Shown piece after piece: positions 13,270 through 58,800 of a stretch of 64,000 nucleotides of DNA. Source of the stretch: Tachypleus tridentatus (lineage: Eukaryota > Arthropoda > Merostomata > Xiphosura > Limulidae); assembly GCF_004210375.1 (NCBI RefSeq), contig NW_027467782.1, positions 35,701,771 to 35,765,770 of the forward strand. Direction: 5' to 3'. The translations under genes were made by a program, and so were the position numbers. The stretch's first letter is position 1, and each line of letters begins with the position of its first letter. Below the pieces are notes generated by a model. The model had not been told where the DNA came from, did not search any database, and saw nothing but the letters and a program-made list of their open reading frames with translations.

Positions 13270-13391
13270 AATTGCAGAAAGGCTGCTTTGTACCTTGTTT
13301 TGCATTTTACATGGAATCTAACCTTGTGAAAATGTTACAAGGCTTAGCACTGGTTCACAAACACCTTAATCACTGTAGTTCACTTGAAAAA
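13270..13391 (+). pseudogene. ATR: ATR exon, N-terminal HEAT region, frame-broken
   Basis: Borders are CTTTACAG before 13270 and GTAAGAA after 13391. The first part, read from 13271, gives IAERLLCTLFCIL, like human ICEVICSLLFLF. The second part, read in another frame from 13320, gives NLVKMLQGLALVHKHL, like human KELLQLFEDLVYLHRR. Between them about ten residues of the human protein are missing and the frame changes, so an out-of-frame deletion near 13305-13320 is the simplest explanation. Similarity is moderate because each half is short. Confidence 0.6.
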
Positions 13392-13747
13392 GTAAGAATT
13401 CAAACAGTTGTTTCATTAAATATTGTAACATAGACCATGTTCTTCAGTAAGATCTTATAGTAGTGATTTTGTCTTTTTCTGGTTATAATATTTCAACTTT
13501 TGTTTATTCTTAACTGTTCGGTACAGAGTAACTAATGTTTGTGAGATTCAAGCAAAAATTGAAACAGCTTTTCAGTCTAAGAGCTCCATATATTGCTTTC
13601 AATGTATGGACTAATTTTGAAATATATTAAAACTTAAAATGTGATTAGCAACTCAATAAGATAAGGTATTACAATGAAATGTTTCATTTTAAAAGCATCG
13701 TCCAACTGTATAATTTGTACGTGGTTATTCTTTCTTTGCATCTTTAG

Positions 13748-13862
13748 GTTTGTAATGGAGTTACTGGTATTTGACTTACTTCAGTTTACACCAGGAAGTA
13801 AAGAGAAATTGTGGAATATACTATGCAAGCAACTAGAATTAGGAGGAATTGATCTTAAATTG
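13748..13862 (+). pseudogene. ATR: ATR exon, about residues 203-247
   Basis: The exon follows CATCTTTAG and ends before GTATGT. After one leading base it reads MELLVFDLLQF, KEKLWNILCKQLELGG and IDLKL, matching human EVTLLMVLTRII, QELLLWQIGCVLLEYGS and PKIKSL. It ends in phase 0, which fits the next exon. The human exon for residues about 173-202 is not seen in the 356 bp before it, and the phase of its first base does not fit the exon at 13270. Confidence 0.8.
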
Positions 13863-14069
13863 GTATGTATTTAGTTATAAATTGCTTTAATGTACTTAAT
13901 TATAAGTTTATAATGAAATTAAGTACTGATATTTAAAAATTAGTTGTTGATTGTATGACCAGTCACTACACCACTGTGCCAGTAGATTGTGACAACCTTA
14001 ACTGTGAATAATGAAAGTAATCAGGTACTTTGTTGCATTCTTATAATTAGTATGTGTATGTTTTTTTTA

Positions 14070-14172
14070 TAAAAAAGCCACATTGGGCTATCTGTCGAGT
14101 TTACCCATGGGAATCGAACCTCTGATTTTAGCATTGTAAGTCTGTAGATTTATTACTGTACCAGAGTGGAAC
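14070..14172 (-). repeat. tRNA-derived SINE, family 2 (short)
   Basis: On the minus strand the order is A-box-like head, GATTTACAATGCTAAAATCA-like arm, B-box-like GGTTCGATTCC, then ACTCGACAGATAGCCCAATG and a TGGCTTTTTT tail. The + strand copy at 56173-56288 has the same plan. The tRNA part most resembles a tRNA with anticodon TAC (Val), by the TTACAA loop. Confidence 0.75.
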
Positions 14173-14179
14173 TATAATT

Positions 14180-22615: not shown

Positions 22616-24456
22616 GTGAGAGCTTCTGGTTAATTTTATCATTGAGCTTTCAATTTATAAATTTTGTGGTGAAAATTGGATCAAGCTTATAGATTGGTAT
22701 CATTTTATTTTTCTGTACATAATTATGATTATTTTAAAGCTTTTAACTAAGATATACAAAAATCTCCACATAGAATATGCTTCATCAAAATCTGGATATC
22801 TTGTAAATATTTTCATATATGATATCTAGTCACTCAGTATATAGTAAGTGCATAATGCTACATGGTTACTGTGTGACCACAGCTGCAATCACTGTGTTGC
22901 TCCCTTTTGCATAATGTAATGGTAATTCCTTAGAACTAACAACTCATAGTCTTGAGGAAAAGTACTCCTTTATCAAAATAAAAAAGGATAGGGAAATTAT
23001 ATTGGCTTCTTTGAGGTCATATGATGGAGGCTTGGCATCTAGATTAATTGGATCAATTTTTACACTTCTGATGAAGAAGGCAATGGCCACCACATAAGGA
23101 AAATAGCTGAAGAGAAATAAGTGTATAAGATAATTCAAATAAAGCTTCTTTATTTTGGCTAGCTTATCATGGTTTTTTTACTATTTTAGCTTTCTAGTAT
23201 AAATTTGTCCAATTACTATGTCAGCACTACCTCATAACGACCTCAGAAGTAATATTTTCACATTAGACATAAACAGTTACATATTTGGCTGTACTTAATC
23301 CTTTCTCAAAGAAACCAAATTCTCTTTCACAGTGGATTGATTGACTAAGAAAGGAATGTTCAAGTAGTCACCTAAAGAACCCCAAGATTCAAGACAAACT
23401 TTTCCACTGCTCCAGAGTTTGTGCATTAGGCACTATTTTCCAAATTTTCAACAATTTTCTTTTTTTCGTGTTCTTGTTTCATAATTATGGCTTCTCAGCT
23501 TCCTTCATAACTGGTTACAGAGCTACCTTATCTGCCACAAACCTCCTTCCTTCCTTTGTTCAAGGACCTCTTCAGCTAATTTTGTCTTCAGTTGTAATAT
23601 CTTTACCCTTGATGCTCCATATACTTTTTTCAGAAGGCCTTATACACATAGCAGGTTTGCTTTTTCCCATCTAATCTGGGGCTGTTCTAATTGCATTGGT
23701 AAATTGGCTTGTGCAGTTGGTCTGAATCTTTACTGTAATGTTCCTGAATAGCTTAACCATATCAGAATAATACTTGTTGTAAACTGCTTTCTGTGCACAT
23801 TACTGAGTTACATTTCAATATTTAATTAAATTGTTTTACTCTCAGTGCATTATAATCACATTATTATTATAAGGTATGCTGCAATTCAAAGTTTTGTATT
23901 ATTTGAGTTTGAATTTCTTTACTTCAAAATAAACCTCTAAAACAATAATTAACAATAGCTTTTGTTGTTATGTGATGCTTCTGTGGTTGTGAATCTCAAC
24001 TTTAACAACTGGTATAGAATGTCTACATTAACATGTTGATTTTCAAAGTACACTTACACAGGTTGCTTATGAGTAATTTGATTACATTCCAAAAACTTGT
24101 CCTGGAGGAAAGTATTATAAAAATGTTCTTAGTTCAAGATAAGCCATGCTCACTTACAAATTAGAAGCTCTATTGCTAAGTGACAGTTTTAACTTGTATG
24201 GTATCCTTATAACCAATAGGAAGAGCAGGTTTGCAGAATCTTTAATGTAAATTATCTTCTATTTAGAACAATGTAAATATTGACTGTATATCAAACATGC
24301 TATTGGTGTCAACATTCTTTATATTCACTATGACAAAAACCTATACACAGATAGTATGGGACTTTTTCTTCATCTGTTCTGTGCATAGGTTTTTTTCACA
24401 GTGAATACAAAGCATGTTGGCACCAACAGTATGTTTGATACTTTCACAATCATATA
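22616..24456. other. Intron DNA, no gene recognised
   Basis: I found no coding similarity or named repeat here. The open frame at 23468-23674 has no recognisable domain. Confidence 0.5.
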
Positions 24457-25360
24457 CAGTACTGTGCAAAACTTTAAGGACAAAGTAAAAAATTAGGCAT
24501 CCAATTACTTTCACAGGACAATAGAAAATTAATCACACGTGAAACATCAGAAGTGTATTAATCTTCATATTCAGTACAACAGAAACTTGGTGGAAGTGCT
24601 AGTTGTCCCATCTTTCATGCATGGCTGTAAAATATTTAATTAAAGTTTCTTGTAGGATATTCTTCTAAGTGTCTCTAATACACTCCCATAAAATTTCTTT
24701 GGAAGAAACTTTTGTTCTGTGAAGTTTTGATTTATCAAATCCCAGATCTACTCAATTGAGTTGAGACTGGGACTCTGTAGGGACCATTGCATCATTTGAA
24801 TGGTTCCAGCAGCTTCTTTCTTAGCTAACTAATTTCTGCATAAGTTGGATGAGTGTTTGAAGTCTTTATCTTCTTGTTAGTAGAATCCATTATCAATAAT
24901 ACATAAACCACTGGGTATACCATGATGGATCAGTATCTGATGATACTTGTACTTAAGTTGGATGAGTGTTTGAAGTCATTATTTTCTTGGTAGTAGAATC
25001 CATTACCAATAATACATAAACCACTGGGTATATCATGATGGATCAGTATCTGATGATACTTGTACTTAAGTTGGATGAGTGTTTGAAGTCATTATCTTCT
25101 TGGTAGTAGAATCCATTACCAATAATACATAAACCACTGGGTATACCATGATGGATCAGTATCTGATGATACTTGTACTGAAGTTGGATGAGTGTTTGAA
25201 GTCATTATCTTCTTGGTAGTAGAATCCATTACCAATAATACATAAACCACTGGGTATATCATGATGGATCAGTATCTTATGATACTTGTACTGGTCCATT
25301 ATTTTCCATCTATTTTGTAAATATCTCTTGTCGCCTCAGCGAGCCACCCCAACCCTAACA
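24457..25360 (-). mobile_element. Tc1-like DNA transposon remnant with tandem expansion
   Basis: Starts with CAGTACTGTGCAAAAC after TA, as at 15813. On the minus strand it reads, from right to left, a WGWLAEATRDIYKI segment, then DNGFYQEDNDFKHSSN (the Tc1 QQDNDPKH region holding the second catalytic Asp), then SPDLN-like codons near 24760. The QDND-coding part has been amplified into four 113-bp copies. It lacks its N-terminal DNA-binding domain and is not functional. Confidence 0.75.
24842..25293. repeat. 113-bp tandem repeat, four copies
   Basis: AAGTTGGATGAGTGTTTGAA recurs at 24842, 24955, 25068 and 25181, exactly 113 bp apart, and the array ends near 25293. The four units differ at only a few positions each. 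Each unit is part of the Tc1 transposase coding region, read on the minus strand. Confidence 0.95.
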
Positions 25361-26689
25361 TATGTATATGATACATACCTTTGCATTTGCCCTCAAAGTA
25401 GTTCAATCTTCTATGCTGGAGCTCTTAGAGATAGTGATGCTTTCTTGAACTTGACAGAGGATGTTATTTGGTGGCTAATGGCACCTCTGCAGGTACCTTT
25501 CCTATCTTATGTAGCCTTCAAAACATTGAAGACAAAACACCGGTCTTATAATTCTATTCAAGATGGGGATCACCATATATCTGTCTTTTATTTATTTTCC
25601 TAACTTTTATTTACACTTCCCATATTACTGTGAAAGAATGGTCAAGCCTATACTTGGCTCTGTTTTATTTTTGTGATGTTCCTTGGGTGCCAACTAACTT
25701 GGCCATTCTTTTCAAATTAAAATAAAAGATCCTTTATTCCCAGGAACATTCCCAGTTTTAGCTACTACTGAGAAATTTCCATTACAAAATTAAGATAGTA
25801 GTTTGCACTCTGACCCCGTTCACATGTGATTGCCACTACTTTTGACCAGACCTGAAAATTTCTGTGGTTCTACAAGTTTTTTTTTCTTAACTCCCATTTA
25901 TACATTTGTATTTATTGTTAATGAGTGCACATGAAGAGGAAGGCACCCTCCAGAAAAGAATATCTTCCAGGTTAGTCTGCTTCACTAAATTCTCTCATGA
26001 TCTTTTACTGTAGTTCAGAATCGTACTTAAACTCTGTTTTATCACTTACTTCATTTGTTAATGCCCAGCTTCTTACCTTCCTAGGAGCTTAAGAGCTCTA
26101 CTTCTCTGGAACCGGTGTTCTGTATGACACACACTGTTCCTCTTCAATGGGATATTTACTCTTAGTGTTTTGGAGGAAAGTTAATTGATTTGAGTTTTAT
26201 ATTGTTAGAATCAAAGTGAATTGCAGATAGTTACATACCTCTATAATATATTCTTATACACAACTGGGAGAAATTCATCATAAATAGCATCTCATTCACT
26301 GTTGTGTCTGTCATATCCCAGATGGACCTATAAGTCCTGGCATTAAACAAGGTCTTACTAGCATGGATGTAGCAGTTGTAATGTGGTTGACATTTGTTAC
26401 ATATTATTTTTACTTTCATTCTTAGAACCACAACAGCAAACAGTTAAGTCTTCTTTATGTTGGGAAAGCAGGGCTTTTTTATGTTTTCTTAGTGTCTGCA
26501 CAATAAGTCATGGAAGGTAAGAACATTGGAGAACTTTTAATAAGTTGATGCATGCTTTTCATTAAGGATATTTGTAACTCAACTGTCACATGGTTGTTGA
26601 CAGCTTGAGATCAACTCTTTGAAACTGATTTGAGTTTTAGAAATGTGCTTAGTGGGTAAGATGCCAAAGCCAAAGGGAATCTTGAATTA
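25361..26689. other. Intron DNA, no gene recognised
   Basis: The open frame at 25286-25603 starts inside the Tc1 remnant and continues into unrecognised sequence (AGALRDSDAFLNLTED). I cannot name it. The rest shows no element with visible ends. Confidence 0.4.
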
Positions 26690-29600: not shown

Positions 29601-30110
29601 GTTTGATTTGAAATTAGAAAATGACTGTAAAGTCAAGTAACTCAAATAGGACTGGAAAGGTCTACTTAGGTGACTAACGCTGCTGTTTGAACTACCTGTT
29701 AGTCAACCTGGCAAGTTACTATTAAAATTTTGCTACACTTCCTTTAAAACTTTAATTACTTTACTTTTTGAAAATAGCTATAACATCAAATAACTTGGAA
29801 CCAAGACTGGAAAGGCCAGCTACAGGTGACTGATGATGGTTTTCGTACTTATCTCTTTTAATCTTCCTAGCGAGTTATGATAGTTACAGTTATGCTGCAG
29901 AAAGTCCTCTACAACTTGTATTACTGTAGTTTTGTTTTAATGCTTTAGACTAGATGTAAACATTGGTTTATGGTTTTTTTACTTTGTTTTTTTTTTTACC
30001 TTAATTTTCTTTTATTTTACTTTAATTTTATCTTTTTACTGGATGTTTAGCACAGATAGCCCAGCTGCTTTGTGCCATAAAACACCAAATCAACCAACCA
30101 ACCAACTAAG
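26690..30110 (+). mobile_element. LINE (I/Jockey type), 5'-truncated, with RT and RNase H
   Basis: The copy begins inside ORF2, in the linker before the reverse transcriptase (SSTTSSKVIYDKV near 26700). RT motifs follow: FFDIEKAYNTTWRYGIL at about 27368 and the catalytic YIDDFHISC at about 27613. RNase H is marked by VYTDGSKSGD at about 28750 and FTTELYAISLALDHI and YTDSLSSVLALESL after it. A cysteine-rich C-terminal region and a 3' UTR lead to a tail of ACCAACCAACC ending at about 30110. A SINE splits ORF2 at 28023-28269. Stops and frame changes are frequent throughout. The endonuclease and ORF1 are absent, as is usual for 5'-truncated copies. Confidence 0.9.
28023..28269 (-). repeat. tRNA-derived SINE, family 1, inserted in the LINE
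   Basis: Best copy in the window. On the minus strand it has a tRNA-like head (GGCCGAGCATAATCCAAGTG, then a B-box-like GATTCGAATTCCCATC), then CAAACATGCTCACCCTTTCA, the family body (CTGCCTTCCCTCTAGTCTTA, CTAAATTAGGGACAGCTAGC) and a TTCAAAAACAAG tail. A near-match GGACTATG / CGACTATG on the two sides (about 28013-28021 and 28273-28281) looks like the target-site duplication. Confidence 0.9.
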
Positions 30111-31545: not shown

Positions 31546-31576
31546 AATGAAAGACCAGCATTTTTAAAAGTCTTTG

Positions 31577-33316: not shown

Positions 33317-33344
33317 GTGAGTTGTGATTTTCTATATTTGTTAT

Positions 33345-39997: not shown

Positions 39998-40080
39998 TAT
40001 AGGAATAGAGATTATTTTGAAGTAGAGAAGTTTGAGTTGAAACTTAAATAAATGTTTATCTTCTTTTGTTTTGTTTTTAG

Positions 40081-42149: not shown

Positions 42150-42880
42150 TGCCTTTTTTTCTTTTTTGCATGTTTCTTATCCAACATTTTGAGATGAAAA
42201 ATACTTTCATGCATCAGAAAATTTTCAAATTTCACATACCAAATATAACATTCAAAAACTTATCAAATGTTTATTAAGGAAAAACATTATGTTTTGCCCT
42301 TTATTTTTACTAATGAATCTCTGTGTAGGTTTGGTTGATTTTACTGATTTTGTAACCAAAAAACAAAATATGTGTGTGTGTGTGTGTATATGTATAAATT
42401 TTGCCCTTTTCATTCTGGGATGACAACAGAGTATAACATGAAAACACAAATGTTTAGACTAAATAGCTTAAATCTTATAACATTATACATTCATATATAT
42501 TTATTATTTTTATTATAACAACCTTTCATCCATGCATGCCTAACAATACAGAAGCTACAGTGAAGCAGTGCACATGTGTCATATTACTGTATTAAGTTAT
42601 ATGGAACTAATTTTACTATCCACAGAGTGACCTGTTTTGACTGTGTTGTAGTGGAAAAGGATTGTGCAAAATACAGTCACATTTCAATTATTATACATTA
42701 TATACGTATTTACAATACTGTTATTTACAGGTAACAAATATACAGTTTAAATAAACAAAATAGTCATAAGTTACAATATCAGTACTGTAGAATTCCACTA
42801 TAATTTATCAAGCTTAGTAAGTAAGCTGTATTTAGGTCTAAAAAATATGAAATTCCAACATAATGATTATCTTTTCTCAC
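42150..42880 (-). repeat. Interspersed non-coding repeat, copy 2 of 3 (inverted)
   Basis: Reverse complement shows the same ordered motifs as 11940-12860: GCTTACTTACTAAGCTTGAT, AAATTATAGTGGAATTC, and at the other end ATGTGAAATTTGAAAATTTT then CTGATGCATGAAAG. A GT repeat (42371-42388) lies inside. Confidence 0.65.
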
Positions 42881-45180: not shown

Positions 45181-45185
45181 CTTTA

Positions 45186-46452
45186 GGTCTTTTACAGTAA
45201 ACACAGTCACATGATACCTTATATCTTTCACATTAAACACAGTCACACATAATACCTTATATCTTTCACAGTGAACACAGTCACAACATACTTTATATCT
45301 TTCTTCTATATCTTTCACACTAAACACAGTCTTGCATAATACCTTATATCTTTCACAGTAAACACAGTCACACACGATACCTTATATCTTTCACAGTAAA
45401 CACAGTCACACACGATACCTTATATCTTTCACAGTAAGCACAGTCACACGTGATACCTTATATCTTTCACATTAAACACAGTCACACATAATACCTTATA
45501 TCTTTCACAGTAAACACAGTTGCACATGATACCTTATATCTTTCACAGTGAACACAGTCACAACATACTTTATATCTTTCTTCTATATCTTTCACACTAA
45601 ACACAGTCTTGCATAATACCTTATATCTTTCACACTAAACACAGTCACACGTGATACCTTATATCTTTCACATTAAACACAGTCACACGTTATACCTTAT
45701 ATCTTTCACATTAAATACAGTCACACATGATACCTTATATCTTTCACATTAAACACAGTCACACATAATACCTTATATCTTTCACAGTAAACACAGTCAC
45801 ACACGATACCTTATATCTTTCACAGTAAGCACAGTCACACGTGATACCTTATATCTTTCACATTAAACACAGTCACACGTGATACCTTATATCTTTCACA
45901 TTAAACACAGTCACACATAATACCTTATATCTTTCACAGTAAACACAGTTGCACATGATACCTTATATCTTTCACAGTGAACACAGTCACAACATGATAC
46001 TTTATATCTGTCTTCTATATCTTTCACACTAAACACAGTCTTGCATAATACCTTATATCTTTCACACTAAACACAGTCACACGTGATACCTTATATCTTT
46101 CACATTAAACACAGTCACACATAATACCTTATATCTTTCACATTAAACACAGTCACACATAATACCTTATATCTTTCACATTAAACACAGTCACACATAA
46201 TACCTTATATCTTTCACAGTAAGCACAGTCACATGTGATACCTTATATCTTTCACATTAAACACAGTCTTGCATAATACATTATATCTTTCACATTAAAC
46301 ACAGTCACACATAATACCTTGTATCTTTCACAGTAAACACAGTTGCACATGATACCTTATATCTTTCACAGTAAACACAGTGACACGTTATACCTTATAT
46401 CTTTCACAGTAAACACAGTCACGTATGATACTGTAGGCCTTTCACAGTAAAC
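45186..46452. repeat. 38-bp satellite, about 33 copies, with variant blocks
   Basis: Unit: ATACCTTATATCTTTCACAG then TAAACACAGTCACACACG. Three places carry a rearranged variant unit with TTTCTTCTATATCTTTCAC followed by AAACACAGTCTTGCATAAT (near 45290, 45565 and 45995), each inside a longer shared block, so parts of the array were copied as multi-unit segments. The array ends about 140 bp upstream of the ATR exon at 46590. Confidence 0.95.
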
Positions 46453-46589
46453 ATATGGTATTGTGTGTATTTATTGTTATTTTTATTTCTCCACTTCCTA
46501 ACGTTTTTCTTTCTTTCTGGAACTGAAGTTTTTCATGCTGTGTTTATGACTGTTTTCTTATGTAAAGTACACATTTTTCTTTTTTGTAG

Positions 46590-46737
46590 GACTGTGCATC
46601 TTATGCACTGCAGGAAACCTTACAGATATATACTTGTCAAAGTGGAGAGTTGTCACAAATTGTGAGACCAAGTAATAGTCTTTGGAACAGGTTTTCAGAA
46701 GAGATTCAAGAAATTTTGGTACCTTTGCAGCACTCAG
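46590..46737 (+). pseudogene. ATR: ATR exon, about residues 1415-1460
   Basis: Acceptor TCTTTTTTGTAG, donor CACTCAG/GTATGT. It reads DCASYALQETLQIYTCQSG, SNSLWNRFSEEIQEILVP. Human: DSAAYAIQELLSIYDC and GHQLWRRFPEHVREILEP. Open, phase 0 in, phase 1 out. Among the best-conserved exons here. Confidence 0.93.
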
Positions 46738-47009
46738 GTATGTATTTTATTTTTTATTATAATGAAATTTAGACAGTAATTTTCAGTTATTTTCTTTCTT
46801 ATCAATTTTTTTTCTAACATTGTTCATTGTGTTATGTTTTTCTTTTATCTTTACTGTGTTATAAAACATTACAATTCAACAGTATTTTAGCCTAGTTTAA
46901 ACATTAAAAACTCAATTTTTTTTAAATATTTCACATAAACTGAAAAGTTATTTGAATATTGAAGTTGTTCTGCTTTTTTTAATAAAAGTTAAAAAAAAAA
47001 GTTCATCAG

Positions 47010-47146
47010 GTTTTGTGTTATTATTTGATAGGTACATTATGTCTAGTAACAAGAGGACTTCCTTTCCATGCCCAATATATGGGAGCAAACTAGGAAGCAC
47101 TTTTAAAGATTGGGCCTGTAATTGGGCATCTTGTCTTCTCCAGAAG
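47010..47146 (+). pseudogene. ATR: ATR exon, about residues 1461-1501
   Basis: It reads FVLLFDRYIMSSNKRT, then CPIYGSKLGSTFKDWACN and WASCLLQK, against human RYKSSQKST, KKPIYLSKLGSNFAEWSAS and WAGYLITK. Two acceptors are possible. GATAG before 47032 has the better tract but would break the frame; TTCATCAG before 47010 keeps the phase and adds about six residues, so I chose 47010. Donor CAGAAG/GTAAGA, phase 0. Confidence 0.88.
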
Positions 47147-47813
47147 GTAAGAAGCACTTTTCTGTGATAAAAAGAAATGAGATAATTAGGTTGCTAATCA
47201 ATATTATTGTTATAGGTGATTATTATATTAATTAAAACCATGACAAAATTTGAACTAGAGATCAGACTGTGTAGATAAAAGTATTACTGAAACAGAGGCA
47301 CCTCACAGTTCAGCTAAACATATCTGTTCACACAGTTCTTGTAAGTCTGAGTTTCATTTCCTTTTCTAATTCAGGAGAATGTTAATTTCAACTATTAAGT
47401 AACGTGCACACAGTTCTGTAACATTTGTCACAGTTTTAGCCCATTAGGAGCACATTATTGAAACTTACTCTACAAATATGTTTAGAACATAAAGGTGGTA
47501 TACACTTTTAGAATTTCTTTTGGGGGGGTAGACTACTGTAGTATCAAAGACAAGTACTAGATTATAATCACCACATTACACTTAAAATTCTCTCATTTTG
47601 TCTTTGTATATGTTAATTTTCTGTTTTTAATGGAAAGAAAAGAAATAGTGCAGAATAGTTTTTATAAAACTGCTTTTGAGAACAGATTATGCCATAGAGA
47701 AAAACAACCAAAATCATTTCAATTTAAAACTAACTTTTCCATGCTCATTAGCATGTTTTTAAATGCCCTTAATTTTATAAAATTTATATGGTTTTGTGTA
47801 TTTAATTTCTCAG

Positions 47814-47951
47814 ATAAAGCGAGAGAATACAGCTAGAGTTTTTCAGTCATGCTTCATGATTGTCAAAAACGATGTGAAGACAGCAGTTTTTCTTCTTCCT
47901 CACATCATGGTTAATGTTTTACAAGATGCAAGCAATGAAGAAAAGGAAGAT
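47814..47951 (+). pseudogene. ATR: ATR exon, about residues 1502-1547
   Basis: Acceptor AATTTCTCAG; it reads IKRENTARVFQSCFMIV, KNDVKTAVFLLPHIMVNVL and QDASNEEKED. Human: VRHDLASKIFTCCSIMM, KHDFKVTIYLLPHILVYVL and GCNQEDQQE. The donor GAT/GTTTGT is weak but gives phase 0 into the next exon. Reading through instead meets a stop within six codons. Confidence 0.92.
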
Positions 47952-50140
47952 GTTTGTTTTAAGAAATAATATAAAGTATAGAAGTAAATGTACATAATTC
48001 TTTATATGACATTTTCTTTTTTCAGAAGTAAAGAATATAATACAACTGATAGGCTGTGAGATTTTAAAGACAGAGCTTAGCATTGATAGCCATTTGACAG
48101 ACTTCTGCATCTTCTCTTATCAGATTGGCCAATCATTAATTTTGTTTAGATCTGGTAATAAAATGTTTTAAGGGGTAAGAAAGCAGGGAACAGAAAGAAA
48201 ATACCAGTACCAGTACATCTGCTTTGATGTTTACAGTAAATAGAAAAGATTCTGAATTGGTTAATTATCTATCAGTCAGCCAAAGGTATTCTGACTTTTG
48301 GGACATTTTACTTAACTTTAGTCTTTCAGTCGTTTTTCAGGATGTGAATTCTATTGTGAGAAACTATTTTCAAAATAATATTAAAAGTACTTCCTTTTAT
48401 CAAAAAATTTTCTTTCTTTCTTATTGTTGATTACAAATCCTAGTTCCATCTTACATATCTAGTCAATTTCAACTTGATTGAAAGTAACATTATTTCTTTT
48501 GACAGTTTATTTTGCCAGTTACAACTGTCACTGCCAGAAACAAAGATAAAACTGTCAAAAATGTATGAGTGACCTATGGTCAGATCTTTGAAATTGAGAT
48601 CAACGTTACTTTTGTCAGTCTAATTAACAATATTTTTGCTAAGAGTATTCTTGGACAGCATGAATTTATATCTAATAATGTTTTTTTTTTAATAGATATT
48701 AAATTATTTATGTGTATCTTATGAGTGCTATAAACTTAACAGTAACATTCAAGAAGAAATAGTTTGAATTATTAGAATAATTTGTTTTATTTACCGTACA
48801 TGTTTACTTAGCTTATGTGCACTGAAGTCTTGTCATAACTTTCAACAAATATAATGTAATATGAAAAACATGAATGTTAAAATAAACTATAATCCACTTT
48901 TGCATGTTACACCAAATGTTATAGCATTAAAAATACCAGTTGAACAGTGATTTTGATTTATATAATTATATAAGACAACATTGTTTGTTTTTTGAATGCT
49001 GTGCAGTGTAAGACTACAGTGTTACTGCAATAGTAAATGATGCACAGGCAGATAGGTTTAAAAAACTGCATCTAGGTTGAGTCAGGTGTCTAAAGCTCTG
49101 TTTGGTTGGTTAAACTTGCTCTTAGACTGTGTCAAATGTCTGTAGTTTTTACTTTGGCACTGTAAGTATACAGACTGCTAAAATAGAGACTATACGAGGA
49201 TAGCTTGTATTTCACACACCTACTAAGGTGCATTATGCTCACATATAGCAGGAAATGACTTGCTTCTTATTGTGCCAAGAACATACCAAGTGGACCAACA
49301 ATATAAGAATAGTAATTTTACAAGTGAGCTATGTCTCACCCTGCTACCACATAACAGCTATGTGCTTATTTGATGAGTATCTGAGAGTCAGGTTAAATAC
49401 CATATTCATATGGAGACATTGTACATATGATGGTGATTCAAGTTGGTGTTGACAGCAATGAACATTGGAAGACTTTGTTTTACGATCTTCTGATTGGACT
49501 ACTAATGCCTTAAATTCTATTATCCTGTGTTCTGTCACATAATGAATTATGATTTTCATTCTAACTGTGTAGAAGTAATCAGTACATCGTCTTCAAAAAA
49601 GAGGGGATTGAGTGAAGTGTGTCACCAGTCTTCATATCCATTGTTCATGCATGAGATACTCTTGTGAGCTTCATCACATCCTATGAAATAATTCAGAATA
49701 CTGAAAATGCCCTGAAGGTATTTGTTTTTAATGGAGTGATTACTGATGCCTTAGAACTTAATGAACATTCTGATTTCGAGTATACAGCATCAGTGCTGTA
49801 CTGCCTTTGTTGTTCATGGTGGTTGTCCTACATATTAAGATGAAATCCCCAGAATTGTGGAGGTGTAAAGATGACTGATTTATACCAAAATGAACTGAAA
49901 ATGTGAGCTGAATAATGTGTTCACAGCAGTTTTTGCGTTATCATAGATGTTATAAATTACAAGAATCTATGAAATATTTTGCTGCATATTTTAGTAGTAG
50001 AATTTTAAAAGCAAAATGGAATGTGAAATAATTTTTTTAACGTTGATAATCAAGGTAGATTTTAATCTCACTAAAATTTAGAATTAATATGTGTTATTAT
50101 AAAAAGAAAAGCAAAACTTTTTATGTATTTGGGTCTATAG
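47952..50140. other. ATR intron, nothing recognised
   Basis: AT-rich; no coding similarity and no bounded repeat found on either strand. Confidence 0.5.
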
Positions 50141-50347
50141 ATCTACAGAGAGATTATGGCTGTTCTAAGCCATGTTGACCAAGCTGAACAGAGCAAATTG
50201 AAGTTTCATGAGAAGACTGACCTTTGCCACTTGAGTGCCCAGACTGTGTTTTCAATATTGGATTGTTTAACGGTTTGGTGTCATCAGTATTTTGTGATGT
50301 TGAGATCTAGTAACCAGAATAACCCAAGCCTGCAAATAAAGGGAAAG
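50141..50347 (+). pseudogene. ATR: ATR exon, about residues 1548-1610
   Basis: Acceptor GGGTCTATAG, donor GGAAAG/GTAGTT, 207 bp, phase 0 at both ends. It reads IYREIMAVLSHVDQAEQ, EKTDLCHLSAQTVFSIL and DCLTVWCHQYFVMLRSS. Human: VYAEIMAVLKHDDQH, ASDLCQLSTQTVFSML and DHLTQWARHKFQALKAE. Open and well conserved. Confidence 0.93.
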
Positions 50348-51798
50348 GTAGTTGGAATACTCATTAATTAATCATGAGCTTAAGTTACTGGTATTTTATG
50401 TTCTTTTCTTTGAGAAATTAAAGACTGTAAATATTATAAAACAATTAAAATGCCTGTTCTAGTCATTGATTAACAGCCTTATTTATGTTTTACAACATAA
50501 AATGTCACTTTGCTAGGAAATAAGTAATGATTTATTAGGGTAATAATTTCAAAATTTGAAGCAGAGTTACCAGAATATTTTCTCATGTAAAATAATTGAA
50601 TTTACTACAAGACTTTCATCTGTAGAAGCTAGTGGTGGTAATAACTTTTGGGTAACAAATTTTCTACAGTGTTCTTTAAGAAAAAATTAATTTCATTATT
50701 AGTCTAGCCTGTATTTCTAAAACTGTTGTGTTGCCTTTTAGATTCCTTTAGGTAGAGGAGAAGGTTTGTCCACTTAGTTGTTGTTACTTTCTCATTGTGT
50801 AAAGCATCATTCTTTGGCTACAGGTTGAGATCCAGTCATATATATTTATATACACACACAAAACATTGTGGTCCAATAACCCTAACCACTAACATGAGAT
50901 ACAGGTTTCATGACTGCCTAAATCCAACCTTGGCTACCTGGTTGAGGCTAACCTATACGAATGATTACTTGTATTCTGTTCCACCTTGGATATAAAAATT
51001 AAGTTTCAGGTGAAGAGCATATCTGTTCTGGAGGTAGTTCAGTTCTCCCACTCTTGTACTATTCTTTTCTTGGTATACCCTGTTCTATGAAGACACTTTC
51101 TGTATGGATCATGCCTGCACCAGCCCCTCCACCTTCTTAACATGGGATTCTAGTGTCAGTAGATGGTATATTTCTTAACTGAACATGTATTTTCGATAAT
51201 ACTTACCTTCACTGACACCTCCTGTTCTACCTTCCCACTAAAACCAAATGTATTTCTCAGAAAAAGTGACTGTGTTGTCAGGATGAGATGGTTATATACA
51301 GTACCTAGTTAGAAGGCACATTAAAGTTTGTGGAGCAGTTTGCTAGTTAGAACTTGTCTAAGGTATTTAAGTTGGGTATAAAAGACTGAAGTTAGTATTT
51401 TCAGTGCTTAGATGGGCAAAATATGGAATCCTTAGAAATCATGAAATAGCTGTAATGTCTGCATAGGTAAGTATTATTGGAAGTGCATTTTAGTTTAAGA
51501 AAGCATTAGTTTCCATTTTTGATACATTACCATCTAAACCCTGAGTTTGACTTATAGTTTAATGAAGAGCAATTGAATATTTTAAATGGTAGTGTGTACA
51601 CAAACCTATGTATGTCACTTAGGTCTTTAACATTCAAGAGATGTACAAACAAGTCATCATGTTCTTTCAAGAGCTGTAGTTTGTGACAGGACCTTTTCAT
51701 CCATGTAGCAAGTGTATAGTTATACTGTGACCTAATCTGGTGCATTATATTCAGTACTGTGTGGTCTAACTTTCATGCAGTATTAAGGACTTAACAAT
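50348..51798. other. ATR intron, nothing recognised
   Basis: A stretch around 50990-51260 is richer in C than its surroundings and may be an old repeat, but I cannot name it. Nothing else supported. Confidence 0.45.
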
Positions 51799-53165
51799 GT
51801 TTAATCCTTTTATAATGGGTCATGGATCAAAGGCCATCTTGTTGTGTTTGTTGACTTGCATTCAAGATTGTATTGAACAAATATTTTATGAATTTATGTC
51901 AGTAAGTTTGGAATCAAATTGTAGATTATAATTTTACTATTTAATGTTATGTATGAGTTAATTTCTTAGTTTAAAAATAAGTATTAAAAGAACATAAATA
52001 TTGATTTTAGTGAGTCACATGTTATGTTTAATGCTGCACAGTTTAAAATTAGATGTTTGTGGTGTCAAAATACTAAGTTCACAGTTTCATACAAATTAGG
52101 AACTCAGATTACTAACTTTGACAAGCTAGAATATAAAATAAAAAGGTATGAGGTCTTTAACACAGTGGGCTCTATTCAACTCTTTCCAATTTTTTGAAAC
52201 AGTCCATTATATACTCTTACTACAGTATATGACATGTGAATAACCAATCAGTAGCTTAAGATGTTCCTAAAGTGGTTTTTTAGCTATTTTAATCTTTGAA
52301 AAAGCTAGTGTTCTTTCAATCTAAGTTTTCAAGGAGTTTGGTTGTGTCTTTAGTCTGCTCATAGTTTCATATATTTTAAAATTGATATAAATCTAGTTAC
52401 TAAGTGGAATTCTATGGTATCAGTGTAGTTACTTATGATTTTTTGGTTATTCAACTGTATGTATAAAACCTAAAAAAAAATTGTTTGATATCCTCCACTT
52501 GTGAAATTTCAAAAGGCTTAGCAACTTATGTCCAGCAACAACCAAGTACAGAGATCGTAGAGAGAAGAGATAATTGTTTGCTTTTCCCATTTTTTTTTCT
52601 ATATTTTAAGAAAAGTTTAATAATTTATTTCTAAATAGTCATAATGTATATACATATATATAATGTATAATAATTTAAATGTGTCTGTATATTACAAAAT
52701 ACTAGTCCACTAAAACACAGCCAAGACAGAAAAGACTAAAGGTCAGTTTTATGTTACTGGATATGTAATATGAGAGCACCAGATCAATGCAAGTTGCACA
52801 ATGCTAGCTAGGCATGACTGGAAGGTCAGTAACATAATAAATATATATGTAACATGTAGCATTATGAGACTTAGTCTACTTAAACTAAACATTTGTATTT
52901 TCATATTACAATATGTCATCATCATAGCACTAAAAAAAAAAATTATTTATTTCCTAATTTTTTAATGATAGTTACAAAGCTAGTTAAGTGACAGACCCCA
53001 CAGCTGGAGTGTAGAAAATAACATAATGTATAAAGTTTTACTGAAATCAAACATCTGAAATATATTTGGGAAGTTTTAGAGATTATGCAAATAATATTTG
53101 AGATTTTTGGGATGAAGAACAGTTTTTAACTCGTAACATGAAATCACTTTGCACTCATACTAGTA
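51799..53165 (+). mobile_element. TTAA-edged non-autonomous element plus interspersed repeat copy 3
   Basis: Begins TTAATCCTTTTATAATGGGT then CATGGATCAAAGGCCA, as at 55796 (TTAACCCTTTCCAGATGGGT, CATGGGTCAAAGGCCA). From about 52330 it matches 11940-12860: TTACTAAGTGGAATTC, TTTGGTTATTCAA, CCACTAAAACACAGCC and AATTATTTATTTCCTAATTT. The right terminus is not clear. No coding capacity. Confidence 0.6.
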
Positions 53166-54265
53166 ATGAAACAGACTCAATTTTCACAAACAGATCTTTT
53201 ATAAAAATAGTTCACGAAACATCTGATTTTTGTAAAAAAAAATACTTGTATCTGTACTAATGTCTACCAGATTTTGTGAAGGTACATGTGCTGTGTCAAA
53301 AGTTATAGTACAAATACTTAATGTGTGCAAATGTGTAGATGAACTTGTATATTATACTGAGTCTGTAGCAAAAGGGCAAATTACTGCTAGTTATCATAAT
53401 TTTTTCCTGATCTGTCTCTAGCAAAAGCTATCCTTCATATATAAAATGAAGTAGCATGTATAAACTATCTGTTACACCTTATTCATTGATATTTGTATGT
53501 AACTTCTAAAAATATGTAACCTGTAAACTTTAGAACTACATTGATAATGAAGAGAAATTCATCTTTGTATGTGGCTTATGTACTTGTATTGTATATTGTG
53601 TCTTCAACTTGGTTCACTGATGAAAACTTTGACTGCATTTAACAGAAACAAGATATGTCAGCAGTCTCATTTGAAAAATCTGATAAGCTGACAATTTTAC
53701 AGATTTTGGTTTAAAGTGGAGAAACTATAGAATGATGTGTTGGAGCTTTCATCCTGGAAGGAAGCAAATGTGATGATTGTTATGGTATAAATAAAACCAG
53801 AATTTACAAAATATTCGATTTCTCAAAACAAGCAAAGTAAGTTGCAGTTTAATAATAAAATGATCTTGTGGAAACCACCAAAATGTGTTGCCAACTTGCC
53901 CTTGAAAGTAGAAATTCAGCTAAGAAATGATGGCAGAGTTTCAATGTTGAATTCATTTGCAATTTTTCAGTTTCTGTGCCACATCTCCTTTAGCTCTATA
54001 TATATATATCAACATACTCCATGAAATGCTTCAGTTCATTGTAGAGTCAAATTATTGCAACATCAGTATTTTGGGATTCATCTTTAGTGGTTTTTATTGT
54101 TTTTCTGATAAGCTTCAAAGATCTGAAGTTGTTTACATGTACAATCTGTACTATTATAGTTCATTCAAACTTTGCTGCTTTCAACATCTGTTTTGTAACT
54201 GATATCAACTTCTGTTTAGAACTTTATCGTTAAAATAATAGATAAAATTCCAAATTATTGTGCTG

Positions 54266-54615
54266 TGACCAATTTTCTTTTGACTTGATGGAGGTTGTTA
54301 AGATTTTGTTATTGACAAATAAAAAACCCATAATTACACATTTTTGCAAGGTGACCTGTTTTTCTTGGACCTGACAGAAATTTTTGTGATTCTATTCTTT
54401 ACATAATAAGACATGGTTTGTAATTATTGGTGACCTAATGGAGGTCCTATGGGTTTTGTTCTTGACAGAATAAAAACGATTCTTAGTTGTTGAGATGTAA
54501 TCTGCTACTAGGACCTCAAGATGGCTGTTTTGGTTCTGTTGTTAACAGAATAGAATTATTCTCAGTTATTGAGATGTGACCCATTACTAAGACCTCATGA
54601 TGACTGTTGTGGTTC
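54266..54615. repeat. Degenerate tandem repeat, period about 70-85 bp
   Basis: Four to five units share GTGACC...GACCTNATGGAGG, TTTTGTTCTTGACAGAATAA and ATTCTTAGTTGTTGAGAT. Units differ strongly. Confidence 0.65.
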
Positions 54616-54747
54616 TGTATATTCATAAGCTCATGCATAGAATGAATACACCAACTTTCCTTAATCTATAATAAATGTTTTACATGTAAAGACAATGTAT
54701 TTTTCGTTTTTTGTGATTTGCTTTTGCTAATGCATGAATTGACAAAG

Positions 54748-54934
54748 TTGTTATTTCTCTTGTGGACCCACATAATGATCCCAACTATAAGTCTGTTTAT
54801 GACTTCCTGAAGAGTGTTCCAGAAGACCTTTTAGCTCCTTTGTTTGTCAAGCTTATGCTCGGGCTTTAATGTATTTAGAATTATCAATCAAGAATAACCA
54901 AGAATCATCACGGCTACAGTTGGCTTTCTTGCAG
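54748..54934 (+). pseudogene. ATR: ATR exon, about residues 1615-1677, frameshifted
   Basis: The first part reads VVISLVDPHNDPNYKSV, YDFLKSVPEDLLA (human DSMVSTVDYEDYQSV, TRFLDLIPQDTLA). After GACCTTTTAGCTCC near 54835 the homology moves to another frame: SFVCQAYARALMYLELSI, SSRLQLAFLQ (human SFRSKAYTRAVMHFESFI, HLGFLQK). In the first frame a stop follows 13 codons later. A loss of one base (or four) near 54840 explains this. The acceptor is also poor: the only AG near the start of homology (54746-54747) does not fit the phase of the previous exon. The donor GCAG/GTAAAT is normal. Confidence 0.82.
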
Positions 54935-55653
54935 GTAAATAATTTTGAAATGATATCTCTTGTAATTTTGTATAATGAAATATTAATACTACTAAGATTA
55001 CATCACATGCCAGAATATTCTGTTTGATTTCAAATGACAAAATAATAGTTTAAGGAAAACAATAGATATTGGTAATTTTGCATTGAAACAGATTTTAAGT
55101 GTGAATCTGCAGTGTGTGTTATGTGAAGTTGCAATATTCATGAGATGAATAGAAACCAAACTGTGTAAAGTTTAATACTTACAATCTTTCAATGAGCTAA
55201 TTGTATAATAAAATTCTGGGCTTGTACCTCAAACTCAGATTTGTGCTATAACTTTTACTACTGTCAGACTTACATCTTCTGTAGTACAACTTTACATGCA
55301 CATATACATAAAATTATAGCTCTCAAAGAATATTTTCAGAGTACTCATGTTAAAATGTTTTTATTTTTTTATTGTTTACACCTTTTCTCCTGATAATTTG
55401 GTTCATATCAACAAAATTTCCCATTATTTCAATGGTACTGTCACAGGGCAGACTCAGTGTACCTTATTTCTGATCCTGTGCCTCTCCTTACCTGTTAATG
55501 AACTTCAGAATCACTCTTTATAAGAATAAGGAATCTAAGAATATTCAGTATTCAAATGCAAAAATGTTTTTATATATATATAGGATGAATGCATTGTTTT
55601 TTATTACTACTTTTTTTCAGTTGTGATCAGTATGCATCTATTTTTTGTCTTAG

Positions 55654-55759
55654 AAACTGTACATCCTCCTTGATGAACCAGATGGAGTGGCAGGAGTAGC
55701 AGCATCTCGTCAAGAAGACCCCACACTTCATGATTTGATTCTAGGTCATGAAGCAACTG
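55654..55759 (+). pseudogene. ATR: ATR exon, about residues 1678-1713
   Basis: Acceptor TTTTTTGTCTTAG, donor CAACTG/GTATGT. It reads KLYILLDEPDGVAGVAAS, RQEDPTLHDLILGHEATG. Human: KLYAAMHEPDGVAGVSAI, RKAEPSLKEQILEHESLG. This is the hallmark EPDGVAG motif of the ATR FAT region. Open, phase 0 in, phase 1 out. Confidence 0.95.
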
Positions 55760-55795
55760 GTATGTAAAGTAAATATTTCTTTATGTATGTAACTG

Positions 55796-56150
55796 TTAAC
55801 CCTTTCCAGATGGGTCATGGGTCAAAGGCCACATCATTGCACTTGTCAACTTACATTCAAAATTTTATTGAACTACTATTTTATAACTTCTTAAGTTTGG
55901 TATCAAACTGTATGTTAATATTTAAATTTTCATATTATATGTTATTTAAAAGACACCTAAACATCGATTTTTGTGTGTGATGTGTTCATGATGTGTTTTT
56001 ATCTGATTTTGAGTTATCTGTGAACTTTTAAATTTGGTTGTTTGTTAGTAATTCAAATTAGCATATACTAAGGTAATTAGAGAACTGATTTTGTGGTCTT
56101 TATTTACTGAGTACTAACTTAAACATAATTAAATTTTATCCTGTGTATAG
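55796..56150 (+). mobile_element. TTAA-edged element, 5' fragment
   Basis: TTAACCCTTTCCAGATGGGT, CATGGGTCAAAGGCCACATC and the next 300 bp follow the start of the copy at 51799. It breaks off before the SINE at 56173. Confidence 0.6.
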
Positions 56151-56172
56151 TATTATCTACTAATTGATTTGT

Positions 56173-56288
56173 TCCCAGTTGGTACAGCAGTAAGTTTATA
56201 GATTTACAATGCTAAAATCAGGGTTCAATTCCCCTCGGTAGACTCAGCAGATAGCCAGATGTTTGCTATAAGAAAACACACACACACA
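56173..56288 (+). repeat. tRNA-derived SINE, family 2 (good head)
   Basis: The tRNA-like head has an A-box-like TTGGTACAGCAGTAAG, an anticodon region GATTTACAATGC (TAC, Val-like) and a B box GGTTCAATTCC. It is followed by CGGTAGACTCAGCAGATAGC, TTTGCTATAAGAAAACACAC and a CA-repeat tail. The head would not fold as a good tRNA, so this is a SINE, not a tRNA gene. Confidence 0.88.
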
Positions 56289-58740
56289 TTGATTTTGTTG
56301 TTTTTTATAAACTGGTAAGTCTATAACCTAGTTATTTTTGGTGAATTTCTGTTTTCTCAATCACTATGATTTTCTTTTACACAGATATACTATCCATTTA
56401 TTTTATTAATTCAAGCTATGCTATTTTTATTAATTATTCTATTACATTGTATCCAACATAAAATTTATACAATTATACACTTGTGCTTTTAATGTTTTAA
56501 AAAGTTGTCCAAAGATGATGATAAGTCTTCATGACAACACTGGTATTACTGATGATGATGTTTTTTGCTTCCAGCATCTCTCTCTTCATCCTCAGATAAC
56601 TTAACTCTGGGTGTACAAGCTAAAGAGGCATATTGAAAACTTCTTAAACAGCTTACCTGTTTGCTGTGGATGGACATACTTTGTCAGCATTCAAAACTCT
56701 AGTAAAGTGTAAAAGCAAAATGGGGTACAGTTGATTTCAGATCTTGATAATGCCAATAGAAAGAAATAATTAATTAACATTATTGTTGAAGCCATTCAAG
56801 TTGCAGTACTTTTATGCAATGCTTAGTTGTGGTAGTTACACATGAAAACTGGCTCTAAAATAAACAAACTGATTTTTTGCTAAAGCAGTGAAGCAATGTT
56901 TACAGTTTATTTCTGTTGTTGCCTTACAGAACATTGGGAGCTTTGGCGATGTAGGTACAAGTAATCTAAAGAGGATTATTGGTGATGGACTTAAAGATGA
57001 TGGAAATGTTTTAATTCCATCAAAGAAATATGCTTACATGCTAATTTTAGCTACAGCTTATGAAGTCTCTTCTGACAAATCCTGTTTTTTTTAAATATTG
57101 CCTTTAGAATTAAGAACTTAAAACTTGTATACTGTTATAATATGCATTATTAGCTGAGATGTTTATGCTATTCTAATTGTTATAACAAATTAATTAAATT
57201 TTGATTGTGAGACACTAAGATCTTGTGTCATGCCAAGTAAGTAATACTTTGGCGATCGGTTTATCTTTTTCAGAACAAGCATCATAGTGTGAGAATTGAC
57301 ATTTGCTCAGTAGGTAATACCCTCTTCTCTAACTCATTTTCCATTGCATCAAGAGCTATGAAAGTTAACATAATTTCTTATAATGTTGTAATCACTCACA
57401 CAAAAGCATAACTTTTATAGTCTTCGATCTCATTTGGTTACACATCCAGAAATTGTAAATTTGTAAATCAGACCCAATGTGACATGCCCACATATCACAT
57501 CCTCTTGTTTCAGAAATTGCCAGTAGTTATCTGTGATGTTTAATACCACATTATGTGTAAATAATAGAAAGCCAACATTCTAAGGCTGGTGTAGAATCTC
57601 TAGCATCAGGGAAACATTTGCTGAGGCTTTGTTATCTTAACATCTTTTATATTTTGGTATTTCTGATTTACTTGCTCCTGATTATGATATAGTGACCTAA
57701 TTTTAATTCACTAACTTGACAGGTTCTCTTCTGCCAAAGAAAATCCACAGTCAATTTAATGGACTCCGACAAGGGGATCATTGTGATTATCAAATGGTAC
57801 TTCTGTACGTGAAATCAGAAAACATCGTGTTTAAGTGTGTATCTTTATTAATAACTGTTTATACATACCCCTGTTATTCCATCCTTCATTGTGTGCACTA
57901 AAGAGGGAAAATTTTAACTTTATACAGTACTGCCTGGAAATTGTTATCAGATATTATGTCATGGAACTTTCTATTTGCAGTTCATTGTTTTCCATAAACT
58001 ATAAAACAGCTTGTTGTGTGGCTTCCATCTCTGTTCTTGAACTTCTTGTATAAGACTTTAAGTTTCACAAGAAGAATGTGTTGTTTTGCAAGACAGTAAG
58101 TACCCAGTCGTCTCTCTGTTTAATATAGGGACCATTTGTGAGTGCGATGACAGATCACTGCTTACATTTTAAATAACTGCTGACAAAATTTTTCTGATTC
58201 CCTCTTTGTCTTCTCTCTCTATTTTCTGTTCAGGTTAATTACCACAGATTCCAGTGGTACCAGATGTTTATTTAACATGAGGAACTATGAAACAAGTTGG
58301 TGATCAGTTATCTTAATAGTGACTCTTTAACAAAGGTCCAACCATAACTGTATCTTTAGGTGCCATTTAGGTAGTCTCTTTCTTGATTGGTATCTGTAAA
58401 TCATTGTGGAGCTGTAATTTCCCAACTAAAAAGGACAGTGGTTCAATGATGAACTTTCTAGAAAAGTTTATTTTTTATTATTTTACATTTAACTTTGAAA
58501 AAGTGAAAATTGCTTGATTCTGCAGAACACTTTAAGGCATTATAAACAAGGGAGAAAATACAAAAGATTAATAATTGGTGCAGCTATGTGTATTTTAATA
58601 GTCAATATAGTTTCAGTTAAAAGGTAATAAATGAAGTTCATTCTAAGAATGTGTATATTTTTGCCTGCTAATTGTTCCATGTTACCTGTACCTTAGTACA
58701 GTTTTGTAACTCCATTTTTTATTTATCAAATTTGTAGCAG
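56289..58740. other. ATR intron; expected exon not found
   Basis: Human residues about 1714-1795 (CYDRAIQLEPDQIIHYHG and onward) should lie between the exons at 55654 and 58741, but I found no similarity in any frame. Part of it (about 57195-57600: GCATAACTTTTATAGTCTTC, CAGACCCAATGTGACATGCC, TCACATCCTCTTGTTTCAG) resembles the middle of the TTAA-flanked family. The frames at 56888-57094 and 57716-57901 are unrecognised. Confidence 0.5.
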
Positions 58741-58800
58741 ATTTCTTCTGATAACTGGGAAGTTGCAGTTGGAAAAATTCTTCTTTCTGTTAAAGAAAAG
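58741..58800 (+). pseudogene. ATR: ATR exon, about residues 1796-1815 (last one seen)
   Basis: It follows TTTGTAGCAG (58738 is an equally possible start) and ends GAAAAG/GTATGA. It reads ISSDNWEVAVGKILLSVKEK, against human KSTTWSVRLGQLLLSAKKRD. Short, but the W...G..LLS.K pattern is specific and the position fits. No later ATR exon was found up to 64000. Confidence 0.75.

Follow-up and report, generated by a model that had tools for sequence, protein, structure and literature searches.

A decayed copy of the checkpoint kinase gene ATR in the horseshoe crab Tachypleus tridentatus probably belongs to a young, amplified family of partial duplicates

The window, a stretch of 64,000 nucleotides from contig NW_027467782.1 of the T. 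tridentatus assembly, contains part of a gene for ATR. A tblastn search was made with a human ATR query of which residues 528-2644 matched human ATR in PDB as one stretch (4894 bits). It returned nine stretches between 40.1 and 58.8 kb, all on the forward strand and in residue order. They correspond to exons for human residues 1368-1422 (40079-40240; E 7e-4, and 0.003 in a search of 260 kb), 1415-1456 (46590-46724; E 3.5e-6), 1477-1503 (47072-47152; E 1e-4, with a GT donor after it), 1497-1548 (47799-47954; E 8e-8), 1548-1601 and beyond (50141-50322, matched at 50141-50308), 1614-1677 (54750-54934, one exon hit in two frames at 54750-54836 and 54833-54934) and 1678-1714 (55654-55764; E 1.6e-6, edged by AG and GT). 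A short exon for residues 1797-1814, also with a GT donor after it (58747-58800), matched weakly (E 36 in 260 kb, 0.039 in 11 kb), and its order fits the rest. When the window exons and the first exon beyond the window were compared with PDB, all three matches at E<=0.001 were to ATR (best 8e-72).

Several of these exons are disabled, as the initial annotation had proposed. A 7-bp deletion near 54834 was found in the window copy only and is absent from all four other aligned copies, while a 1-bp deletion near 50323 is present in 2 of 12 aligned sequences, the window and a copy on another scaffold (C4:20446780), and was inherited. With these deletions and a missing middle, the window copy lacks the continuous reading frame over the exons of a functional ATR gene. 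Residues about 1714-1795 had been described as absent. A protein search at 55.8-58.7 kb indeed did not find residues 1715-1796, and loss and divergence are inseparable here because the counterpart on scaffold C3, where another ATR locus lies, is not assembled.

Exon-like segments had also been assigned to ATR between 13.27 and 33.3 kb. At the protein level this part of the claim was not confirmed: human ATR residues 1-460 scored no better against this interval than the reversed query, two of its open reading frames had no ATR match in PDB, and three had no Pfam match at E<=0.01. The absence of Pfam matches says little here because the FAT model PF02259, which matched on scaffolds C6 and C10 only, missed the ATR sequences on both C3 and C19, the scaffold of the window. 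The last exon-like frame before the missing middle (33150-33317, forward strand), previously placed at residue about 445, is open and by eye resembles human residues 424-450; we treat it as putative. The one observation that suggests an ATR origin for the upstream segments is that positions 24225-33559 are colinear, in forward orientation, with C3:67895660-67905036, on a contig that bears middle ATR exons (98.4-99.6% identity in 7/7 sampled C3 pieces, one of them 36 bp long and identical).

The reported gap at residues about 445-1369 is real and consists of two pieces in the comparison with C3. Colinearity extends to 33559, after which C3 has an additional 77-81 kb, including the exons for residues 993-1067 and 1151-1200, and the match resumes at 35353. 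The junction (33560-35352) is bounded by C3 positions 67905036 and, at the latest, 67986000, and it contains part of what was lost, in inverted orientation, with window positions 34129-33789 matching C3 67910159-67910499 at 99.4%. The ATR intron then continues (35353-35981, colinear with C3:67986000-67986632 at 97%) to a second stretch that differs from C3 (35982-39322), 3.3 kb long in the window against 19.4 kb on C3, where it includes the exon for residues 1245-1271. This difference ends at 39323 and represents a further loss of about 16 kb. Within it lies a dispersed repeat (36224-37553) that is also found, at 97% identity, beside the UME exon of an ATR copy at C19:37.935 Mb (L035). A contig join had been offered as the alternative and was rejected as unneeded because the window contains no N and C3 carries the part that is missing from the middle.

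The statement that nothing follows residue about 1815 proved to be an edge effect, since the window stops there. The ATR copy extends for another 29 kb outside the window. It reaches residue about 2166 at window coordinate 91.4 kb and stops at 93,056, a point past which 7/7 other copies compared continue. The kinase half does appear to be absent, for a reason other than the one given: what had been seen was the window edge, and the amplified family ends in the intron ahead of the kinase exons. A query with the kinase end gave 22 matches (33/33 candidates scored), none of them on C19. Nine lie at C3:67823552-67851282 (best E 2.8e-19, 74% identity); the other 13, on C12, C13, C1 and C10 (best E 4.9e-8, 52%), are presumably other PIKK genes. 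Likewise, none of 28 matches to PF00454 was on C19 (53/53 candidates scored). The C19 copies thus appear to lack what a functional ATR gene has at its 3' end, a PI3K-like kinase domain and FATC. The idea that C19 hides the kinase end at some distance downstream was also considered and rejected, with none up to window coordinate 201 kb and no kinase-end match on the scaffold.

The second ATR locus that the initial annotation suggested seeking in the assembly is the one on C3, which carries the kinase end. Including introns, C3 and the window copy are 97.8% identical over 4,514 bp and 98.6% over 899 bp, and other aligned pieces are 95.6-99.6% identical; 7/20, 6/20 and 2/5 pieces per sample could be aligned, the rest lying in stretches lacking from the window, past the 3' end or in N. 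That introns were copied with the exons at such identity, 97.8-98.6% over 5.4 kb, is characteristic of an unprocessed pseudogene, and the alignments indicate that a recent segmental duplication links the two. Substitutions amount to 8 in 558 bp of three downstream exons (1.43%) and 69 in 4,815 bp of intron (1.43%); six of the seven resolved codon changes alter the amino acid, and at three of those six C3 has the human residue. On this basis of 558 bp, the three exons of the window copy appear to diverge at the intron rate, as under relaxed constraint. The C3 gene is itself not complete as assembled, with contig A (reverse) and contig B (forward) in opposed orientations across a gap of 500 N and with no match to the exon for residues 1548-1601, and because of this we can only infer that C3 is the intact parent of the copies.

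Rather than two loci, as had been assumed, the assembly contains 26 sites of the exon for residues 1548-1601, of which 24 are full or nearly full and two frameshifted (33/33 candidates scored; four matches representing two split sites merged to two). Twenty-one are on C19, four on C4 and one on C10, and no match was found on C3 among the 33 candidates. The same 57 residues are encoded at 19 of the 26, window included. Such identity could also reflect constraint instead of a young age. The UME exon was found at 18 sites, 14 of them on C19 (34/34 candidates scored), and all 14 matches to the exon for residues 2063-2133 are without stops, the C3 and window copies included. The tally by exon excluded query residues 224-289 (5 matches), 374-428 (2) and 613-662 (1), and took the exon for residues 1548-1601 from its own search. 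Beyond C19, copies occur on C4, C9, C10 and C14, and exon spacing differs among them. The copy counts are lower bounds, with several searches scoring best candidates only.

C3 differs from six C19 copies at 34 fixed positions in 2,811 columns (six of the seven C19 loci fetched, L035 being excluded for an insertion). Of 47 sites that vary between copies, 46 show the C3 state in one or more of them. The copies compared differ by substitutions of 1.0-1.9% from the parent and of 0.1-1.1% from one another, excluding L035 from the UME set and L104 and L105 from the 3' set; for the UME loci, copies differ from C3 by 2.2-3.0% untrimmed and 1.4-1.9% once the alignment ends are trimmed. The family also has a 3' limit, which falls in a single interval of 1.2 kb in a C3 intron, the next exon detected lying 15 kb further on. 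On one side, C3 67867050-67867329 matches at least 17 further sites (16 on C19, one on C4) at 95-97%, among the best 40 of 7353 candidates and after 8 C3 self-matches and 16 dispersed-repeat matches (query about 841-1120) were set aside; on the other, neither C3 67865550-67865829 nor C3 67864050-67864317 matched elsewhere at more than 89% among the best 40 of 716 candidates. The junction into foreign sequence was located precisely in one copy, C3 67866267 corresponding to C19 31533161, and for 17 sites to the 1.2 kb interval. The end of the window copy, at 93,056, differs from the interval that the 17 sites share. The shared fixed differences and the common 3' limit therefore suggest one truncated founder, followed by amplification.

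Taken together, the sequence comparisons make it very probable that the window holds a decayed copy from a young family of partial ATR segmental duplicates, which has been amplified to at least two dozen copies that are mostly on C19 and apparently all kinase-less. The founder would have been a stretch of ATR with its introns, cut some 15 kb short of the next exon detected and brought to C19 by duplication or translocation, with a breakpoint perhaps in a part of the ATR intron that resembles a transposon. Copies may then have spread by unequal exchange and inverted duplication on a repeat-rich, perhaps poorly recombining chromosome, with non-ATR neighbours amplified alongside. The window copy itself lacks the 77-81 kb and about 16 kb more of its middle, was cut at 93,056 and has exon deletions. 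Most likely no functional ATR is made from the copies, which were simply carried along as the region was amplified. The original proposal was right that a horseshoe crab, whose assembly gave 19 matches to the coagulin family, has an extra ATR sequence in decay; the kinase end lies at another locus, on C3.

The surroundings of the window copy resemble those of ampliconic families, which combine near-identical copies on one chromosome with inverted repeats: 21 of 26 sites are on C19, which at 69.8 Mb makes up 3.2% of the genome, and an inverted repeat of about 27 kb (96.4-98.6%) brackets the copy. All four non-ATR probes (the inverted-repeat arm and pieces at -12500, -2500 and 1500) had further copies on C19. 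In one search 20 of 34 matches were on C19, and in another, which included an ATR probe, at least 30 of the best 40 of 315 candidates; the latter used 4 of 8 drawn pieces. The amplified ATR family may thus mark C19 as an unusual chromosome. A reading that complements the preferred one, and that we hold tentatively as a possibility somewhat short of even, is that C19 could be sex-limited (a W or Y) or supernumerary, with the ATR family as one of its ampliconic families, functional or not. The amplified neighbours, the inverted repeat and the size of C19 relative to C3 (119 Mb), C4 (124 Mb), C6 (170 Mb) and C10 (195 Mb) are consistent with it. Against it, copies occur on C4, C9, C10 and C14 as well, C14 is another small scaffold (35.5 Mb), and the probes all came from one 260 kb region, probe 1500 having a single further site among the matches listed. 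A ZW system has reportedly been described in a 2025 Limulus genome paper. According to one genome paper (PMC7210998), sex-chromosome information was lacking in the horseshoe crab group.

It is unlikely that the C19 copies are an assembly artefact in which contigs of a single ATR locus were duplicated or wrongly scaffolded. The assembly (2.17 Gb) exceeds other T. tridentatus assemblies (1.72 and 1.94 Gb; PMC7815833) in size, so that redundancy could account for some copies; contig B of the C3 locus also looks misoriented, with middle exons missing there, and short indels prevail in some copy-to-copy differences. However, the 34 fixed differences, the subfamily-specific changes, the frameshift common to two copies, the truncation junction into foreign sequence and the differing exon spacings argue against this.

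It is still less probable that the copies act as kinase-less ATR, as dominant-negative or ATRIP-binding decoys, or as a source of ATR-targeting small RNAs. Many exons are open, as at the 14 matches for residues 2063-2133 and the 19 identical sites for residues 1548-1601, but open exons are expected in a young family; moreover, three window exons evolve at the intron rate, and the window copy and others carry frameshifts. A related speculation, to which we give marginally less credence, is that C19 is sex-limited or supernumerary and that kinase-less ATR was amplified on it as a selfish fragment, because truncated products or small RNAs would weaken the ATR-dependent meiotic surveillance or silencing of this chromosome. 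Comparably improbable is a giant mobile element that captured and spreads ATR: copies are spread over several scaffolds, where they run in either direction, and an inverted repeat flanks the window copy, yet positions of the arm sequence are largely unlike those of the ATR copies, the window copy stops where the seven others compared go on, and the open reading frames scanned gave only retrotransposon-type domains and a weak helix-turn-helix, with no recombinase in these few. Finally, the relic of a whole-genome duplication that had been presumed, a second ATR retained and now decaying, agrees with the decay of the window copy and with the duplications that horseshoe crabs underwent, one of about 135 My according to PMC7815833, but it is refuted for this locus by the intron identity, with substitutions of about 1.4%, runs against 26 sites instead of two and a shared truncation interval with shared fixed differences, and is barely credible.

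What was presumed to be a genome-duplication relic is thus better read as a young amplified family that points to an ampliconic scaffold. The family offers a multi-copy marker for C19 in males and females, by PCR or read depth, and annotators should not take ATR exons on C19 and C4 for a whole ATR gene or overlook that the C3 gene looks mis-scaffolded. Among the titles listed in searches for horseshoe crab sex chromosomes and ATR copies, none reports an ATR amplification.

Compared with a single-copy ATR/Mec1 kinase gene, the window copy keeps the exon order and sequence of residues about 1368-2166, whereas the kinase and FATC end and the middle are lost and the frame is broken. Fragments of genes from standard chromosomes are known from B chromosomes, as with the grasshopper CAP-G pseudogene (PMC5732253) and the truncated sbno2-B and simc1-B copies of fish (PMC12758807). 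Both they and the ATR family are truncated copies on a repeat-rich chromosome, but the latter consists of intron-bearing genomic segments rather than retrocopies, and a supernumerary C19 is only putative. Ampliconic gene and pseudogene families on sex-limited chromosomes, such as those of the primate Y (PMC4772468, PMC3403216) and the willow palindromes (PMC7023750), differ in that here the gene is a truncated checkpoint kinase, other scaffolds carry copies too and the sex linkage of C19 is only a candidate. What they share with the ATR family is that one chromosome carries numerous near-identical copies, along with inverted repeats and partial or decayed members.

The window occupies C19:35701771-35765770 in an assembly of 205 contigs, where the coagulin family PF02035 has 19 matches, as would suit a horseshoe crab. 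Positions given without a scaffold are counted from the window start and carry on past its end, 64001 being C19 35765771. Exons of the DNA-damage checkpoint kinase gene ATR were located with a human ATR query whose residues 528-2644 coincide with a PDB chain in one stretch. Using tblastn, ATR exons were found in order from 40079 to 55764, followed by a weak match at 58747, and this portion of the ordered series described in the initial annotation stands. The portion proposed at 13.27-33.3 kb was not confirmed by this comparison, the human N-terminus and its reversal giving similar scores there. The window exons, joined to the first exon beyond them, matched three PDB sequences at E<=0.001, all of them ATR (best 8e-72). 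The copy had been described as ending near residue 1815, but the human comparison placed further exons past the window at 66709 (residues 1824-1853), 75577, 78734, 85271 (a weak match), 87834 (residues 2002-2061), 90867 and 91234-91377, the last of which extends to residue 2166, so that the apparent stop is an edge effect.

The kinase end is on another scaffold, C3, the probable site of the parent gene. With all 33 candidates scored, a kinase-end query yielded 22 rows, none on C19 (the scaffold carrying the window); 9 were ATR-like exons at C3:67823552-67851282 on the minus strand, the remaining 13, on C12, C13, C1 and C10, did not exceed 52% identity (lowest E 4.9e-8) and presumably belong to different PIKK genes. 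C3:67869800-67875200 aligned to 92382-86922 of the window copy at 97.8-98.6% identity, introns included, and C3 pieces sampled up to 67895160 tracked the window copy in reverse, back to 67113. Beyond a 500-N gap (67895160-67895659) C3 is in plus orientation and tracks 24225-33559 at 98.4-99.6%; the opposite-facing contigs are most simply one mis-scaffolded contig. A genome-wide search with the exon for residues 1548-1601 gave no match on C3, and the C3 gene is thus incomplete in this assembly. Both N runs that interrupt it, this gap and another at ~68010000, lie outside the window.

The two sequences part at 33559 (C3 67905036). The C3 stretch that follows contains exons for residues 993-1067 (C3 67974035) and 1151-1200 (C3 67977858) and matches the window copy again at 35353-35981 (C3 67986000-67986632). 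A further 19.4 kb of C3, with the exon for residues 1245-1271, corresponds to only 3.3 kb of the window, and the match resumes at 39323 (C3 68006000). Relative to C3, the window copy is thus missing 77-81 kb from the interval 33559-35353, of which a 341-bp remnant sits inverted at 33789-34129, and a further ~16 kb from 35981-39323. These two absences confirm that the middle of ATR (about residues 445-1369) is missing. Disabled exons were confirmed: a 7-bp deletion at ~54834 is not found in the 4 other aligned copies, whereas one of 1 bp at ~50323 also occurs in the copy at C4:20446780 (2 of 12 rows) and was therefore most likely inherited. Three downstream exons differ from C3 at 8 of 558 bases and introns at 69 of 4,815, the same rate; 6 of 7 resolved codon changes alter the amino acid, C3 retaining the human residue at three of these. 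In this small sample, the exon changes match the expectation for a free-running pseudogene. The window copy terminates at 93056, where C3 and all seven compared copies continue, and ~200 bp at about 92827-93028 are missing in two of the seven.

Searches of the genome revealed many such copies. The UME exon, a middle exon of ATR, occurred at 18 sites (14 on C19, 2 on C4 and one each on C9 and C3) and the exon for residues 1548-1601 at 26, of which 21 were on C19, 4 on C4 and 1 on C10, although C19 makes up 3.2% of the genome. Other ATR exons were similarly distributed among the matches listed. With 45 kb linkage the tallied matches formed 49 clusters, C3 included. In one cluster, at C19:31.465-31.532 Mb, the stretch from residue 993 to 2133 and the 3' intron fit within 67 kb; some clusters are incomplete. 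Where further copies were sampled, their pieces were 96.5-99.4% identical to the window copy.

Probes from a single 260 kb region of C19 indicated that more than ATR is repeated. Those upstream of ATR, at -12500, -2500 and 1500, and the segment at 13270 had further copies at 99-100% identity, one further site for 1500 among the matches listed; 30 of 40 rows for these four pieces were on C19 and 10 on C4, C7, C8 and C9 (best 40 of 315 candidates). Since these probes are also multicopy, the whole neighbourhood has been amplified, with ATR as one passenger among others. An inverted repeat of ~27 kb brackets the window copy (-44226 to -16775 and 143309 to 170373, 96.4-98.6%), and a 2 kb piece of it had at least 34 matches, 20 on C19 including itself (best 40 of 671 candidates). 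Its arms are 160 kb apart, the left one abutting a 500-N gap. The region also contains an array of ~38-bp tandem repeats at 195758-201129, over 5 kb long and reaching the end of the region examined, non-LTR retrotransposon fragments at 27589-29003 (plus strand; weak Pfam matches to reverse transcriptase and RNase H), and at 60178-60639 on the minus strand an open frame resembling a mariner-type transposase N-terminus by eye, for which Pfam gave only a weak helix-turn-helix.

Sequence comparisons suggest that the copies descend from one founder. Across 2,811 columns of the UME-exon region, 34 differences set C3 apart from 6 C19 copies (the C19 copy at 37.935 Mb, which has an insertion, was omitted), and the C3 state was seen in some copy at 46 of 47 sites variable among copies. 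After trimming, divergence was 0.2-1.1% among the copies and 1.4-1.9% relative to C3, the latter being 2.2-3.0% in the untrimmed alignment. In the 3' region, 7 differences in 889 columns were fixed between C3 and 5 of the 7 fetched copies, one on C4. C3 67867050-67867329 had at least 17 further sites, and pieces at C3 67865550 and 67864050 had no other match above 89% among the best 40 of 716 candidates. In the one copy read, homology ends at C3 67866267 (C19 31533161), where C3 resembles a DNA-transposon relic by eye and the C19 copy enters sequence 81-85% related to repeats elsewhere in the region. The next ATR exon detected on C3, at 67851282, is 15 kb from this junction, and the family therefore seems never to have included the kinase end.

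Assembly redundancy could account for some of the copies, given that T. tridentatus assemblies of 1.72 and 1.94 Gb exist (PMC7815833), compared with 2,167,478,450 bases here. No working protein is expected from the copies, and a function as decoy protein or small RNA is very improbable. The initial annotation had recognized a real ATR relic but partly misread it: a remnant of whole-genome duplication is rejected.

The window copy is instead a member of a young ampliconic family of kinase-less ATR pseudogenes. Most likely, a truncated segment moved once from C3 to C19 and then multiplied inside a repeat-rich chromosome through unequal exchange and inverted duplication, with occasional exchange onto C4 and other scaffolds. 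Clusters at C8:158.15-158.59 Mb, C9:124.22-124.34 Mb and C4:20.2-21.2 Mb bear C19-type amplified sequence; they result from exchange with C19 or else are contigs of that scaffold placed wrongly. According to a passage in PMC7210998, sex-chromosome information for horseshoe crabs was lacking. The interest of the family lies mainly in what it may imply about C19, which may be a sex-limited or supernumerary chromosome.
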